Origin: Planctomycetia bacterium
GTDB lineage: Bacteria; Planctomycetota; Planctomycetia; Gemmatales; Gemmataceae
DNA length: 33,822 nt
Direction of reading: 5' to 3'
Assembly (NCBI GenBank): GCA_005808665.1
Contig: SYLG01000077.1
Coordinates: 1 to 33,822, forward strand
The notes beneath the pieces were generated by a model. The model was not told the origin of the DNA and searched no databases. It saw only the letters and a program-made list of their open reading frames with translations. This document shows positions 8,883 through 25,982 of the stretch, in pieces (positions within the stretch are counted from its first letter, which is position 1; every line of letters starts with the position of its first letter). The translations under genes were made by a program, and so were the position numbers.

Positions 8883-10415
8883 CTAACAAAACATTTGCGG
8901 AGACATCAACCTGGGTTGACGAATGATGGGCGCAAAACCCATCTTGTCCAATACTTGACTCTTCAGGTCGATTCCCGGGGCGATTTCGGTGAGTTCAATC
9001 CCCAAAGGATGGACCTCAAACACCGCCCGCTCGGTTATGTAATGAACCCTCTGGCCCCGCCGACGGGATTGATCGGCATTGAAACTGATCTGATCGACCG
9101 AGGAAACGAATTTTGGGATCGCACCTTCGGAAACAATGCGCAAACGACCCGATTCCACAACCACCTTCAGGCCGCCGGTGGTAAAAGTTCCACAAAAGAC
9201 CAAATGCTTGGCGTTTTGGCTGATGTTGATAAAGCCGCCCACGCCGGCAAGCCGACTGCCAAAACTCGATACATTGACATTGCCCTTTTGGTCCACTTGG
9301 GCCGCTCCCAAGCCTGCGAAATCCAGTCCTCCCCCATCGTAAAAATCAAACTGGGCAGGCTGGTCAATGATGGCCTGGGGAAAATAGGAGGCACCAAAAG
9401 AAAGCCCACCGGCGGGTAGGCCCCCGATGGGCCCGGACTCAAGGGTAAGCGTTATCTGATCCAACAGATTTCGTTCAGCAGCAATGCGTGCAATCCCTTC
9501 GGGCATCCCGATTCCCAGGTTGGCAATCGCACCTGGGCAAAGTTCTTCCATGCACCTTTGGGCAATGATGCGCCTCTCATCCAAAGGCATGGGGACAACG
9601 GTCCCCAATTGGGCAGGGCCAGCGGATACAAATGCCCGGTTTTCAACCTCGGCAAAGGTTTGCTCATGATCCGCCGGTTCGGCTACCACGATCTTGTCCA
9701 CCAAAATCCCTGGTACACGGACCCGTTTTGGATTGGCCGGTTTGTCGAGAAGGTAGGCGGCTTGGGCAAGGACGATTCCACCACCATTTCGGACCGCTTG
9801 GGCCATGGCTAATATCTCACCAATAATGGCCTCATCATCCATAACCAGATTGCCAAATGGATCCGCAGCAGTGGCCCGGATCAACGCCACATGAATGGGA
9901 AATGCCTTGTACCAAAGCCACACCTTGTCCCCCAAGGTCACTCGTTCGACAAGGTCTTCCGTTGTTTTGCTGTTGAGTTTGCCGCCTTGAAACAAGGGGT
10001 CAACAAATGTATCGAGCCCGACATGGGTAATGCAGCCAGGTCGTTTGGCGGCAATGTCACGGAACAATTGGCAAAGGACCCCTTGGGGAAGGTTGTAGGC
10101 TTCGATTTCTCCTGCAAGGGCAAGTTTTCCCATCCTGGGCACCAAGCCCCAGTGACCGCCGATGACCCGCTTCACCAAACCACGATGGGCAAGGTGATTG
10201 ATGCCCCGGGATTTGCCATCTCCTTGCCCGGCCGCATAAACCAGAGTGAGATCACGAGGCAGGCCCTTTGCCAAAAATTGTTCCTCGAGGGCTCGGGTCA
10301 AGGCTTCAGGATGGGCGGCACCTATGAAACCGCCTGTGGCAATGGTCTGTCCATTTTGAATTAACGCAATTGCTTCAGCAACATTGGCCAGTTTTGCATC
10401 ACGGGGAACGCTCAT
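8883..10415 (-). CDS. Family I CoA-transferase (fused alpha/beta, propionate/acetate/3-oxoacid type)
   Basis: 510 residues containing both halves of a family I CoA-transferase. The N-terminal half begins '[21 protein letters not shown]' and includes '[24 protein letters not shown]'. The C-terminal half carries the catalytic glutamate in '[11 protein letters not shown]' (about E326), the context seen in propionate CoA-transferase and YdiF-type acetate CoA-transferase. The enzyme moves CoA between short-chain acyl-CoA and a free acid; the exact pair cannot be told from sequence. ATG 10415 overlaps the SDR stop (ATGA), so the frame extension to 10478 is unlikely to be used. It is the last gene of the eut-type operon. 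An SDR followed by a CoA-transferase also resembles a 3-hydroxybutyrate/acetoacetate pathway, which is the main alternative role. Confidence 0.88.
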
Positions 10416-11164
10416 GCGTACCATCCCCCATTGACATGCAGGGTTTGGCCGGTGATGTAGGAGGCCAATGGACTGCACAGAAAAACGATCGCATTGGCAA
10501 TATCCTCCGGTTCGCCAAATCGTTCCAGGGGAATCTGTTCTATCATGGCCATTTGAACCTTTTTGGGGATACTCTTACCCATCTCGGTAAGAACAACTCC
10601 GGGAGCGACAGCGTTAACGGTGATTCTTTTTTTTGCTAGCTCCCTGGCAAGGACCCGGGTCATTGCCTCGACGCCGGCTTTCGCCGCAGCATAGTTGGCC
10701 TGTCCAAAAAAACCAAGGGATGCGGCAATGGAACCAAGGCTCACAATGCGGCCATCCGTGCGTAATGTTTCGGCGGCCTGGCGGCAAACATGGAACACCC
10801 CTGTGAGGTTGGTATCCAGAACAACCTGCCAATCCTCATCGGACATCTTTTTGATGGTCCTGTCCCGCAGGACGGCGGCGTTGTTGATGACAATATCCAC
10901 CCCGCCAAATGTCTGGATGGCTTGGTCAAATAGTGCCCTGACGGCTTCCTTGTCACGAACATCACCAGCCACGCACAGGACCCTTTCGCCCAGTTCAAGG
11001 GCAATGGCGGTGGCCTTGGCGCAGTTTTCTCCCTTGGGATCGGGGAAATAGTTGATCACCACCGAAGCCCCGGCTTGGTGGAGTCTTTTCACGGTCGCCT
11101 CGCCCAGTCCCTGACTGGCGCCGGTCACAATTGCGGTTTTTCCCTCAAGCGAGATGAAAATCAT
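10412..11164 (-). CDS. Short-chain dehydrogenase/reductase (FabG-like)
   Basis: 250 residues with all classical SDR features: the Rossmann motif TGASQGLG at about residues 13-20, 'AGDVRD' for the adenine pocket, NNA in the middle, a catalytic Ser in 'SLGSIAAS', Tyr and Lys in 'NYAAAK', and a C-terminal '[12 protein letters not shown]' block typical of FabG-like 3-oxoacyl reductases. It is an NAD(P)-dependent oxidoreductase acting on a carbonyl or hydroxyl group. ATG 11164 places the glycine motif at the usual distance from the start and overlaps eutC by 20 bases. In this operon it could act on a product made from acetaldehyde or on 3-hydroxybutyrate; both are inferences. A housekeeping fabG is less likely because no acyl-carrier genes are nearby. 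Confidence 0.9.
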
Positions 11165-11981
11165 TGGGTTTACCCAAAAGTGTTTCCTTGGGCATTTCTT
11201 CGCGGATGCCCACACCGCTGGAGCTTGTATTCTTTAATGTTTCAGCAAGGTTAACAATGCGCCTGGCTGCCCAGGCGATGCCCACTCCCCGGTTATGAAT
11301 GCTTGCGATCAGGTTGCGGTGGGCATCCGTGTCGCCCGGTTTGGGTCGATAAGCCAGATAGGCCGATAGGCTTTCCGCGGTGGAAAGCCCCGGCCTCTCG
11401 CCTAGGAGGAGGACCACTATCAATGGTTCAAGGAGCGAACCAATATCATTCATGATCCCCACGCGGGCACGGCGGATAAAGATCGGGCGGCCTACCTGCC
11501 ACCCCATTGAAAGAGCCATGGGAACAAGTGCGGTATATAGTGGAAATCCTTGCTTTTGCAGGGCCAGGGCGGAAAGCCCATCCGCAAGGAGGATTTGCAT
11601 TTGGGGAGACCTTGGGCACTCGGCAAGGATGCGTTCCCGGTCCATGGGATGAACCTTCCGACCAAGATCAGGCCGAAGCAGATATTCCGTTTGGGTGCTG
11701 GCCTGACTCGAGACCAAAAGCGGCGGGTGAACAAACCCCTCCTTGTCCTTTTCCCGAACTGCTTTGGGAAAGGTAGCTATCCAGGATGGGTCCTTTTCGG
11801 GCTTGGTTTCCTGAAACACGGCATCTCGGGCTACGGCATGGTCGGCCCGAAGGGCTAAACAATCGGCAGTGGAAAGGGATGCTCCATGTCGCGGAGAAAA
11901 GACCCTGGCTGGAGTCAACCTGGCTGCCAAAGTGGCAAGTTTCAAGGAAAGAGGTTCCTCTTCCTTTGCCGGATTGTTCAC
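11145..11981 (-). CDS. eutC: Ethanolamine ammonia-lyase small subunit
   Basis: 278 residues matching EutC: 'LTPARVFSPRHGASLSTADCLALRADHAVARDAV' at the N-terminus, 'ILLADGLSALA' in the middle, and the strongly conserved end 'GERPGLSTAESLSAYLAYRP', 'DAHRNLIASIHNRG' and 'AARRIV'. With EutB it forms the adenosylcobalamin-dependent enzyme that converts ethanolamine to acetaldehyde and ammonia; EutC contributes to the cobalamin site. Translation starts at GTG 11981, overlapping the permease stop by 4 bases (GTGA). The N-terminus lacks the long extra segment of enterobacterial EutC that targets it to microcompartments, which fits the absence of shell genes here. Confidence 0.95.
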   Translation of the reverse strand: MNNPAKEEEPLSLKLATLAARLTPARVFSPRHGASLSTADCLALRADHAVARDAVFQETKPEKDPSWIATFPKAVREKDKEGFVHPPLLVSSQASTQTEYLLRPDLGRKVHPMDRERILAECPRSPQMQILLADGLSALALQKQGFPLYTALVPMALSMGWQVGRPIFIRRARVGIMNDIGSLLEPLIVVLLLGERPGLSTAESLSAYLAYRPKPGDTDAHRNLIASIHNRGVGIAWAARRIVNLAETLKNTSSSGVGIREEMPKETLLGKPNDFHLA

Positions 11982-13474
11982 CTGGGTTCCCCCTGAATGG
12001 TTTTGAGGTCAACCGGTGGACCACGAAAGATTTTCTTTGCGGATATAAACCATGCCAAAACAAGGATAATCAGGAAGGCGATAACCACATGGCCTGCCTT
12101 TTCCGAAGGTGGCTGGGTGCCGATTACCACCAAACCAAGGCATCCAACCAGGCTCAGGACGGCCAGCGGTTTGAACCAGATTCCCAATTGCCAAGGCCCC
12201 ATTGCAGTCCAACTTCGGCCATGGGCCAACAGACCCAGGAAAGTAGGAAGCACATAGGATAAATATAAAAAAATCGTACAGGCCGCCGTGATGGTGGCAT
12301 AAACCTCGGCGTAGACCGTGAACAAAACCGAGGCGATGGCAACCACCCAAACCGCATTGGCGGGAATTTGGGTTCCATTGCGAACCTTGCGCAGCCACTC
12401 CGAGCCAGGGAGTCCACCATCCCGGGCAAATGCAAACACCATCCGGGACGCTGAGGTAATGGTCGCCATTCCGCATAGATATTGGGCCAGGAGGATAGCC
12501 AGGTAGGCGGTGGTTTCCAAATGGGCCGGAAGGTTTTGTTCGAGAATTTCGACAAAGGTCCGTTCTCCCTGAAGGGCGATCTGTGGGATGTCATCAATCA
12601 CCAAAACCGCCACTCCCAAGAGAATCCAACCGACTATTCCCGACACCAGCACGGATCGGATTATCCCCCTTGGAACATTGATTGCCGCATTTTTGGTTTC
12701 TTCCGCCGCATGAGCGGAAGCATCAAAGCCTGTGATGGTATAGGCGGGAAATAGAAGCGCCAAAAGAAACAACCAGGTCATCGACTGGGTGATGGGCCAA
12801 ACCGGGGTTACCCCTTTCGCTTCATCCAAAGGGGGAAGCCCGCTGAAATTATGAAATTCAAAAAGGCGTAGGGGGTGACTTGGTTCTCCAAACGCCAAAA
12901 AAGCAACCACCAGGAACACGGAAACCCCAAGAATCCACCAGCCACTAAACGAGGTTAGGGGCCCGACAAGGCGGGTCCCCATCAAGTTCAGTACTACCTG
13001 GGTCAAGGTAATGATCGCAACCGCAAGAAGCTGGATGATTTCGCCCGGATCTTCCCCATTAAAAAGTCCACTGACAACAAACCGCCAGGTTCCAACATTG
13101 ATTGCTGCCAACACGGTTACCAGACCCGCCAAATTTAACCAGGCGGTCAGCCAGCCCATGGCTCGGCCTCCCAATAGGGAAGCCCAATGATACAGCCCAC
13201 CCGAGGTTGGAAACGCCGAGGCAATTTGGGCCATGGTCGCCGCCACGCAAAGTGAAAAAAACAAGGCTACTGGCCAACCGATGCCTATCGCCGCCGGCCC
13301 CACCGCACAATAACCCAGATGAAACGAAGTGATCCCCCCTGAAAGAATGCAGATGATCGAGAGCGAAAGGGCGTAATTGGAAAACCCTGAAAACCCCCGG
13401 TACAGCTCTTGGGAATATCCCATTTTGGAAAGGACAGATTCATCCGTTTGATGATTGGAATCGCCTACATTCAT
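11978..13474 (-). CDS. APC-superfamily permease, probable ethanolamine/amine importer
   Basis: 498 residues with about 12 hydrophobic segments from around residue 30 to 480, in the style of the amino acid/choline transporter branch of the APC superfamily: 'FSNYALSLSIICILSGGITS' in the first membrane helix, 'ASAFPTSGGLYHWAS' after the second, and 'TGFDASAHAAEETKNA' near the sixth. It sits between eutB and eutC and is coupled to both (ATGA with eutB at 13471-13474, GTGA with eutC), so ethanolamine is the likely substrate, in place of the usual EutH or Eat transporter. The frame is open to 13582 but ATG 13474 fits the overlap and starts directly before a hydrophilic N-terminus. The family call is firm; the substrate is inferred from context. 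Confidence 0.87.
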   Translation of the reverse strand: MNVGDSNHQTDESVLSKMGYSQELYRGFSGFSNYALSLSIICILSGGITSFHLGYCAVGPAAIGIGWPVALFFSLCVAATMAQIASAFPTSGGLYHWASLLGGRAMGWLTAWLNLAGLVTVLAAINVGTWRFVVSGLFNGEDPGEIIQLLAVAIITLTQVVLNLMGTRLVGPLTSFSGWWILGVSVFLVVAFLAFGEPSHPLRLFEFHNFSGLPPLDEAKGVTPVWPITQSMTWLFLLALLFPAYTITGFDASAHAAEETKNAAINVPRGIIRSVLVSGIVGWILLGVAVLVIDDIPQIALQGERTFVEILEQNLPAHLETTAYLAILLAQYLCGMATITSASRMVFAFARDGGLPGSEWLRKVRNGTQIPANAVWVVAIASVLFTVYAEVYATITAACTIFLYLSYVLPTFLGLLAHGRSWTAMGPWQLGIWFKPLAVLSLVGCLGLVVIGTQPPSEKAGHVVIAFLIILVLAWFISAKKIFRGPPVDLKTIQGEPR

Positions 13475-14895
13475 TTTTGGGTCCCGTCTGTCAAAAGGGG
13501 CATTAGATCCGTAAATATCCTGGAATTTCGCGATTGGCCCAACAGGGTAGGACCCTTGGCAATCGAATGCGATTCCAGCCATTCCTGGAATTCGGGAGCA
13601 GCTTTCAGCCCCAATAGCGATCGTACATAGGCACCATCATGGAAACTGGTGGTTTGGTAGCTAAGCATGACATCATCACCACCCGGTACACCCATGATGT
13701 GGTTGCACCCCGCCTGGGCCAACAGCAACAACAGGTTGTCAAGGCTGTTGTGATCCGCCTCGGCATGGTTGGTGAAGCAGACATCCACTCCCATGGGAAG
13801 CCCTAGCAGTTTGCCCATGAAATGATCCTCAAGGCCCGCACGAATGATCTGTCTTTCGTCAAATAGATATTCCGGTCCGATGAACCCCACCACACTATTC
13901 ACCAAAAACGGGTCAAACTCCCTGGCCAAACCATAGGCCCTGGCTTCCAGCGTGAGTTGATCCACCCCATGGTGGGCTCCCGCGGAAAGGGAACTCCCCT
14001 TGCCGGTTTCAAAATACATCAACTGATTTCCAAGCCAGGGAACATTCCGGTTCAAATGGTGCTCCAAGGCCTGTTCTTGTCCCTCCCTCAATAAGGAAAG
14101 GCTCACTCCAAAGCTCCCATTGGTCAATTGGGTCCCTCCGATGGACTGAAACAAAAGGTCCACCGGGGCACCGCGGCGAATCGCCTCTAGCTGGGTCGTG
14201 ATATGAGCCAGGCAACAGTTTTGGGTGGGGATGGCCAACGAGGTAATCACTTGATCAAGGGTCTGAAGGATGGTTATAACGGACTCCACCGATTCCACGG
14301 CAGGGTTGACCCCAATCACGGCATCACCTGCCCCCATCAGCAGTCCATCAAGGGTAGAAGCAACGATACCACGGGGATCATCCGTGGGATGGTTGGGTTG
14401 AATCCGAATACCAAGCGTTCCCGGTAAACCAGTCGTGTTTCGACACCGGGCGACATTTTGTATGCGGGCGGCAATCCCGACAAGCTCTTTGTTGGATAAT
14501 AGTTTGGTTACCGCAGCGGCAATCTCTGGAGTAATGGCCCAAGCCAGAGCCTTCCAATCGGGAATGCTAGCATCGGTTTCAGGACCACCCCGAAGGAGCC
14601 ATTCCCGAAACTCCCCCACACAAAGGGTGCCTAGGGGTCCCAATGTGGTTTTGTCGTGTCGATTTTGGATTAGCTTGGAAACATCGTCCTGATCCGGGTC
14701 AATCAAGGGTGAGCCAGCAATGGAGGCAAGGGTAACCTCTGCAAGAGCCAGCTTGGCGGCGATTCGTTCGCATTCGCTTTGGGCGGCAATGCCGGCCAGA
14801 ACATCGCCCGATTTCGGTTCATTGGCTTTGGCGAAAAGCTCTGCCAGCGTGGCAAAGGAAAATCGTTCACCCCGGATTGTATGGGCATAAGCCAT
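13471..14895 (-). CDS. eutB: Ethanolamine ammonia-lyase large subunit
   Basis: 474 residues, close to the family's usual 450-470. It is recognised by the strongly conserved C-terminal stretch: 'GFIGPEYLFDERQIIRAGLEDHFMGKLLGLPMGVD', 'CFTNHAEAD', 'HIMGVPGGDD', 'LSYQTTSFHD' and 'LGLKAAPEFQEWL'. 'GDAVIGVNPA' in the middle is also a EutB signature. The protein forms the TIM-barrel catalytic subunit, where substrate radical chemistry is started by adenosylcobalamin. It is the first gene of the operon; the 163-base spacer upstream (14896-15058) should hold the promoter. I looked there for a cobalamin riboswitch and found no convincing core. No strong ribosome site precedes the ATG (weak GGGTGA). No EutA reactivase gene is in the operon. 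Confidence 0.96.
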   Translation of the reverse strand: MAYAHTIRGERFSFATLAELFAKANEPKSGDVLAGIAAQSECERIAAKLALAEVTLASIAGSPLIDPDQDDVSKLIQNRHDKTTLGPLGTLCVGEFREWLLRGGPETDASIPDWKALAWAITPEIAAAVTKLLSNKELVGIAARIQNVARCRNTTGLPGTLGIRIQPNHPTDDPRGIVASTLDGLLMGAGDAVIGVNPAVESVESVITILQTLDQVITSLAIPTQNCCLAHITTQLEAIRRGAPVDLLFQSIGGTQLTNGSFGVSLSLLREGQEQALEHHLNRNVPWLGNQLMYFETGKGSSLSAGAHHGVDQLTLEARAYGLAREFDPFLVNSVVGFIGPEYLFDERQIIRAGLEDHFMGKLLGLPMGVDVCFTNHAEADHNSLDNLLLLLAQAGCNHIMGVPGGDDVMLSYQTTSFHDGAYVRSLLGLKAAPEFQEWLESHSIAKGPTLLGQSRNSRIFTDLMPLLTDGTQK

Positions 14896-24859: not shown

Positions 24860-24867
24860 AAAGGAGG
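24860..24867 (+). promoter_or_regulatory. Strong Shine-Dalgarno site
   Basis: AAAGGAGG ending 8 bases before ATG 24876. It is among the best ribosome sites in the window and shows that translation of the TGA-interrupted gene is still well initiated. Confidence 0.75.
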
Positions 24868-24875
24868 CAACCTGA

Positions 24876-25982
24876 ATGCGATCGATCCTTTCCTTGACAC
24901 TTTCCTTCGTAATGTTCCTTCCGGCGTGGGCCCAGCCTCCCGAGGTGGTTCAAATCCAAAAGCGATATGAAGCCGCCAAACCAGACGAGAAAAGTCTTGG
25001 TTTTTATTCGCTCGATTGGGCCATGAATCTAAAGGATGCCAGGGCGAGGGCCCTTAAAGAAAATCGACCTGTCCTCCTGATCCTGAACACCAACATTACA
25101 GCCGGAACCAACTTTTTTTCAGGCCATACCTGAGCCAACATGGATCATGTGCGGGGGAGTTCCCTCGCCTGGCCCGAATCCCTGGAAACCCTCCGTCCCT
25201 TTATCCTGACTTGGTGGAGTGGTCGAACCATCCGGGAAATGCCCACGGATGTCCATGCCCTTTTTGACGAAGCAGGATTGGGAAATCGGCATATCAATTT
25301 AGCCTTGGTGGTCTTAAGCCCAAAAGGCAAGGTATTACGGTCAACCGTCCCCACCATCAATCCAGGTTATTTTCGCGGAAATCCCGATAACCAGGGACGG
25401 GATTTCAAAGACCAGCTCGATGAACTGTTTCATGGTTTGCCTTTGCCAACAATTAAACTCCCTTCCCATCCCAAGTTGACCCTTCCTGACATCTGTTCAG
25501 GCGGACAACCAGCGGGAGTGCGGATTTCTTTGAAATTTGCCACCAACCGACTCAATCATTTTCGAACCCCAGTCATAGAGGCGGTGGCCTTCACGGATGA
25601 ATTGGTGAAATCCCTCCAATTCCCTTCGAAAGTGGTATACCTCGATGCGGCAAGATTACACCCTTGGCTGGAGCAGATGTATCCCCCGGCAATCATGGAC
25701 GGCAAAGGTGGGTTTCACAAAATAACAGGAAAACTTAGGCTATCCCCCGTGGATGGAAAGGAATCCGGCAATGGCCCCCGCTTTGCTATCCTGACTGGGG
25801 ATGTACAGTTTTACCTTGATAATCAAAGCCGTACCAATTATCAGGGATCCCTTCAGGTGGCCTTGGAATATCGAGGTATTGGTCCCGACCTATTTGCCCT
25901 GAGAGGGGTCCTGGATGCGGTAGTTCCCAAAGGGCCTGAACGGATTGCAATGACCGCAGCTATTGAATCCCGCCCAAAGTAG
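24876..25982 (+). CDS. Secreted thioredoxin-like protein with in-frame TGA at codon 86 (candidate selenoprotein, or broken gene)
   Basis: Two frames, 24876-25133 (85 codons) and 25140-25982, are in the same register and separated only by one TGA (25131-25133), so together they read as one 368-residue protein. It has a signal peptide (LSLTLSFVMFLPAWAQ) and a thioredoxin-like opening: 'DARARALKENRPVLLILNTN', then 'SGHT-(TGA)-ANMDHVR', followed by 'HINLALVVLSPKGKVL'. The TGA falls where thioredoxin-fold proteins carry the active cysteine. The C-terminal half (about 210-368) is beta-rich and unrecognised. A hairpin at 25151-25168 fits a bacterial SECIS. The second frame has no ribosome site of its own. 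Alternatives are a nonsense mutation or true termination. Whether Sec is inserted depends on sel genes that are not in this window. Confidence 0.65.
25151..25168 (+). promoter_or_regulatory. Hairpin downstream of in-frame TGA (candidate bSECIS)
   Basis: GCGGGGG and CCCTCGC form a 7-bp stem (one G-U pair) closing the loop AGUU, beginning 17 bases after the TGA with the loop 24 bases after it. A further 4 bp (GGAT 25142-25145 with ATCC 25178-25181) could extend it across an internal loop. Bacterial SECIS elements have an apical loop with G in its first two positions, 16-37 bases from the UGA; this fits both rules. In GC-rich DNA a 7-bp stem can also arise by chance. Confidence 0.45.

Follow-up and report, generated by a model that had tools for sequence, protein, structure and literature searches.

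A predicted family of exported thioredoxin-fold selenoproteins in Planctomycetota, with selenocysteine encoded by a conserved in-frame TGA

The window analysed here, a stretch of 33,822 nucleotides from a Planctomycetia bacterium of the family Gemmataceae (GCA_005808665.1, contig SYLG01000077.1), carries on its forward strand a gene that is interrupted by one stop codon (Table 1). The sequence-only reading had described two frames in the same register separated by a single TGA, and the frame is indeed otherwise open throughout, the TGA at codon 86 being its sole internal stop. Judged by the frequency of stop trinucleotides in the window, 282 stop-free codons past the TGA would arise by chance with p about 3e-4. 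The strong ribosome site and the signal peptide that had been claimed for the gene are both present on inspection: the former lies shortly before the start codon, and the first twenty residues of the product are hydrophobic and signal-like, ending in AWA/Q. The earlier count of a single other Cys in the whole product was likewise correct (DIC-SGG, near residue 206). This architecture is repeated in the full-length homologues. Open reading frame calling with translation table 11 returns just a downstream ORF of 280 aa starting at 25140, which contains neither the signal peptide nor the active site; standard gene calling would give such a truncated ORF only. Elsewhere in the window, at 10415-14892, the reverse strand carries the ethanolamine ammonia-lyase genes eutB and eutC together with genes for a short-chain dehydrogenase and an amino-acid permease, which probably form an ethanolamine utilisation operon.

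Table 1. Features of the gene at 24876-25982 and its upstream region, in window coordinates.
Feature	Position	Strand	Remarks
Ribosome-binding site AAAGGAGG	24860..24867	+	8 nt before the ATG; sequence inspection
Predicted selenoprotein gene	24876..25982	+	368 codons with the TGA read as Sec; ATG start, TAG stop
Putative signal peptide MRSILSLTLSFVMFLPAWAQ	24876..24935	+	By inspection; N-termini of homologues hydrophobic
Thioredoxin-fold domain, DsbH/DsbD-gamma type (predicted)	24996..25451	+	About residues 41-192; AlphaFold and structural matches
TGA, predicted to be read as selenocysteine 86	25131..25133	+	Motif SGHT-U-ANMDH; same column in 19/19 members
bSECIS hairpin	25151..25168	+	Stem 25151-25157/25162-25168, loop AGUU 25158-25161; rule, covariation, synonymous test
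C-terminal beta-barrel-like domain (predicted)	25479..25979	+	Conserved in all full-length members

The TGA occupies the identical codon in all 19 members of the family, the window protein included, and neither Cys nor TAA nor TAG was found at this position in any of them. The members are 26-63% identical to the window protein and derive from nine families of Planctomycetota and one Armatimonadota metagenome-assembled genome (MAG). A first scan of the genome contigs with the single protein gave no relatives, and an alignment-based search gave five, all with the TGA. When 99 genomes, including the one that holds the window, were searched with stops tolerated, five more full-length members came to light (35-62% identical); in every one of these a single TGA was the only internal stop. 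A phylum-wide profile search of 392 genomes added others. No Cys form of the family appeared, although searches that read through stops would have revealed one. Cys homologues at the Sec position are usual, but not obligatory, for bacterial selenoproteins. The tree has two clades, one around the window protein, with GHT-U and in some members GHC-U, and another with GHC-U. Aligned homologues of the two halves, which the sequence-only reading had proposed as a check, are joined into one frame across this TGA, and in none of them is it replaced by Trp, Arg, Gly or Cys.

This pattern bears directly on the alternative that had been raised with the first description of the gene, a nonsense mutation, and equally on a sequencing error, the gene in these readings being a pseudogene. 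Such a reading would accord with the short downstream ORF that standard calling returns, and with the fact that the gene is missing from many planctomycete genomes. However, the same TGA recurs in every one of the 19 members, across ten taxonomic families and two phyla and with no other stop, and the halves on both sides of it diverge at similar rates in amino acids (dN was compared, dS being saturated); independent errors cannot produce such a pattern. On these grounds we reject the pseudogene, which we regard as extremely improbable. Mixed stops and general decay, which had been named as possible signs against a selenoprotein, are not seen among the members. The sole frame-broken copy is L042 (genome G223), a fragmentary MAG copy in which the N-terminal part, ahead of the TGA, is encoded in a different frame, probably as a result of an assembly error or the decay of this one copy.

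The gene might also be two genes, a short exported peptide followed by a protein of 280 aa restarted at the ATG at 25140 (the codon of Met89), which in the window stands soon after the TGA. This ATG is, however, not conserved, the corresponding codons in L018-L021 being GCA, GTC, GCC and GCA, and no ribosome site precedes it. Moreover, the two parts co-occur in every full-length member, and they make up one predicted thioredoxin fold, whose active-site helix begins at the TGA. On these grounds we reject a restart, to which we give next to no credence.

The genome from which the window was taken (G000; 4.48 Mb, 100% complete) encodes the full machinery for which a search had been suggested: SelA (533 bits), SelB (335 bits), SelD (354 bits) and a tRNA-Sec with the anticodon UCA (70 bits). 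Its selD gene itself contains a TGA at ASCAG-U-AGKLP, the known canonical UxxK Sec site of this enzyme. In view of this TGA, UGA is very probably translated as Sec in one or more standard selenoproteins of the organism; SelD, an unrelated enzyme, serves as a positive control only. A tRNA-Sec above the gathering score is also present in the genomes of L017-L021 and in the Armatimonadota MAG of L031. Among the genomes searched with the profile, a selA match was found in 14/14 strong carriers of the gene, compared to 276/392 genomes overall (p about 0.007-0.009).

Downstream of the TGA lies a hairpin that conforms to the published rule for bacterial SECIS elements, which demands a stem of 4-16 bp and a loop of 3-9 nt with G in its first two bases, 16-37 nt from the UGA, at an energy of <= -7.5 kcal/mol (PMC13188914). 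The window hairpin satisfies all four published constraints at -11.9 kcal/mol, in accordance with the match claimed by the sequence-only reading. Two details of that claim need correction: the stem has the seven base pairs reported, and the loop AGUU stands, but the stem is not perfect, as one pair is G.U, and the 24 nt counted from the TGA lead to the start of the loop and not of the stem. When the same peptide is recoded synonymously, a rule-conforming hairpin of equal stability results in only about 1% of cases (p = 0.011). Within the family, 16/19 members possess a hairpin that follows the rule within the energy limit, and in 13/19 genes the hairpin is better than 95% of synonymous recodings (p <= 0.05), which argues that the hairpin is kept for its own sake. 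It is not merely a by-product of the protein; codon choice favours the hairpin beyond what the protein needs. The hairpins of L039 and L041 are no better than their synonymous recodings. In L017, a U.U mismatch interrupts the stem; as the strict stem finder breaks at one mismatch, this hairpin scores low and misses the strict threshold, although it is visible.

In six members of the family, compensatory changes occur at three stem pairs. Covariation was further examined in a set of 19 sequences that includes paralogues and was picked for the same spacing. Here changes on both sides are found at four of the seven pairs and amount to 15 cells, against a mean of 6.1 in shuffled alignments, with none of 500 shuffles as high, a comparison to be taken as support and not as a probability, because of this choice by spacing and because related sequences can exceed shuffles without any structure. 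The signal is destroyed when the partner is slid by one to three columns.

An AlphaFold model computed from an 18-row alignment reached a pLDDT of 87 and a pTM of 0.85. The top structural matches of residues 41-192 are 2ju5, 3fk8, 1sen and DsbD-gamma (Z 9-10); they include DsbH, ERp19 and a disulfide isomerase of Xylella. The predicted fold is that of the DsbH, DsbD-gamma and ERp19-AGR proteins (2ju5, 3fk8, 1sen, 2fwf; PF03190, PF13899). The sequence-only reading had placed the TGA where thioredoxin-fold proteins have their active Cys. Profile alignment bears this out, as Sec86 falls on the first, nucleophilic Cys of the CxxC motif in an ordinary thioredoxin domain (L059), and in the predicted model it immediately precedes helix 87-96. 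The resolving Cys, however, is missing: position +3 is Met89 (U86-A-N-M89), the motif thus being UxxM and not UxxC, and Cys occurs at +3 in none of the aligned members. Gly83, His84, the Sec column, Arg93 and Gly94 are invariant. Many relatives have a Cys directly before the Sec or in the preceding loop, whereas the window protein has neither. In contrast to proteins of the DsbH/DsbD-gamma type, the family shows neither CxxC nor UxxC (the motif is UxxM or UxxA) and possesses an extra C-terminal domain. Modelled alone, this small domain gave a pLDDT of 84 and no confident match in the PDB; the middling likenesses to barrel or START-like folds (Z <= 7.3, Foldseek E >= 0.035) do not suffice to classify it.

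Another reading of the codon would be as a different amino acid, through reassignment of the genetic code, or as a stop subject to plain regulatory readthrough, and the open frame alone does not identify the residue. Several observations speak against this. L017, L018 and L019 terminate normally in TGA, which means that UGA still acts as a stop within these very genes and that no reassignment of the code has taken place. The selA and selB genes of the window's genome contain no internal TGA. In addition, the hairpin obeys the SECIS rule and covaries, and alignment places the codon at the catalytic Cys position of thioredoxins, where some distant paralogues have Cys. Reassignment or readthrough was rejected on these grounds and appears to us very unlikely.

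The selenoprotein reading came through each of the checks that had been set against it with the first description. The window gene almost certainly encodes an exported thioredoxin-fold selenoprotein, with the internal UGA decoded as Sec86 via SelB and the downstream hairpin. Computation shows that the TGA is conserved, that the SECIS element is conserved and covaries, that the Sec machinery is present and that a thioredoxin fold is predicted; Sec insertion, export and a redox reaction are what we infer. SelB bound to the hairpin would bring Sec-tRNA(UCA) to the internal UGA, and the product would have 368 residues, among them Sec86, which would replace the nucleophilic Cys where the helix after the first thioredoxin strand begins. 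After export, the single selenol would most likely act as a redox nucleophile outside the cytoplasm, where it may reduce or isomerise a disulfide, a sulfenate or a peroxide. In relatives, the Sec may be resolved by the adjacent Cys (GHC-U) or by a nearby one. The window protein has no Cys near Sec86, so that a classical UxxC cycle is impossible; in such a one-selenol mechanism, resolution would presumably fall to an external or low-molecular-weight thiol.

Comparison with existing catalogues gave no counterpart. The window protein matches neither Pfam PF03190 nor PF13899 at the curated cut-off, no hit to them being obtained at all, and does not match any NCBIfam selenoprotein family (NF041199, NF041382, NF041383 and others). 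The VPGUxxT (NF041382/NF041383) and Trx7/PDZ (NF041199) families are likewise predicted bacterial thioredoxin-like selenoproteins with one Sec. Weak matches to them, at 10-25 bits against cut-offs of 275-350, occur among the paralogues of the window protein. Their motifs differ, however, being VPGUxxT or CxxU in the NCBIfam selenoproteins and GH[T/C]-U in the window family. No family with the window motif is among the 119 prokaryotic families and subfamilies catalogued in 2026, and Planctomycetes are not mentioned in that review (PMC13188914). The main text of a paper on planctomycete selenoproteins names fdhA and fmdB (PMC4807772). Within the openly licensed literature, this is therefore a new predicted selenoprotein family, with an unusual UxxM site and no Cys form seen, which adds to the 2026 catalogue, Pfam and NCBIfam an entry that they lack. 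It also points to a blind spot, as current selenoprotein finders depend on Cys homologues; the authors of deep-Sep state that their own method may not correctly identify selenoproteins without them (PMC12013277). The apparent absence of Cys versions makes the family a natural test case for the question whether selenium chemistry is indispensable at some active sites.

The profile also matches paralogous exported thioredoxin-like proteins in 37/102 genomes of the window's order, the named relatives within this order belonging to Gemmataceae. The paralogue families show one in-frame TGA at the active-site column, and some genomes hold several copies. Among the fetched paralogues, the Sec column (counted by eye) contains U in 31, C in 4, G in 1 and D in 1; Cys stands there in the distant paralogues L054, L056 and L072 and in the ordinary thioredoxin domain of L059. 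At least six motif types occur across the group (GH[TC]U, GRCUGGA, ERCUGYAAG, NGHPLGxTUNNG, GLUSAGH/GYTUSAA and GYVUGNG). GRC-U-GGA is found in L064-L070, L073, L074 and L046; ERC-U-GYAAG or DRC-U-GYAAG in L075, L076, L078-L080, L082 and L083; GH..xx-U-NNG in L022, L050, L052, L053, L077, L081, L085 and L086; and U-SAGHSLR and its kin in L048, L049, L051 and L060. L058 has an in-frame TGA in a UxxC motif (SYSP-U-PPC) and matches VPGUxxT type 2 weakly (1.7e-5). In L071, L072 and a second copy in L046, the Sec is replaced by Gly, Cys or Asp; these are possibly Sec losses, and could serve to date the gain or loss of Sec.

Paralogue representatives score below every Pfam and NCBIfam cut-off, and several of these TGA-containing families appear to consist of selenoproteins not described so far. 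We lean towards regarding them, together with the window gene, as a large undescribed radiation of exported thioredoxin-like selenoproteins in Planctomycetota, in which Sec is old and near-obligatory and not a late exchange for Cys. If this is true, discovery that depends on Cys homologues would have missed the radiation for that very reason. Planctomycetota appear to employ selenium across an entire suite of exported redox proteins.

The gene is missing from two genomes of the same genus, which indicates that it is dispensable or patchy in distribution. No conserved neighbour was found between the window and L027-L031, and gene order thus gives no operon clue to the substrate. The Armatimonadota member, L031 (Chthonomonas sp. 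UBA2362, DDTO01000004.1), is 60% identical to the window protein, has the TGA together with an identical SECIS stem-loop, and its gene adjoins a type II secretin. This MAG contains only two PSD1 genes, compared to 56 in the window's genome. L031 is likely to reflect a transfer between phyla, from Planctomycetota, in which both the TGA and the SECIS element were retained.
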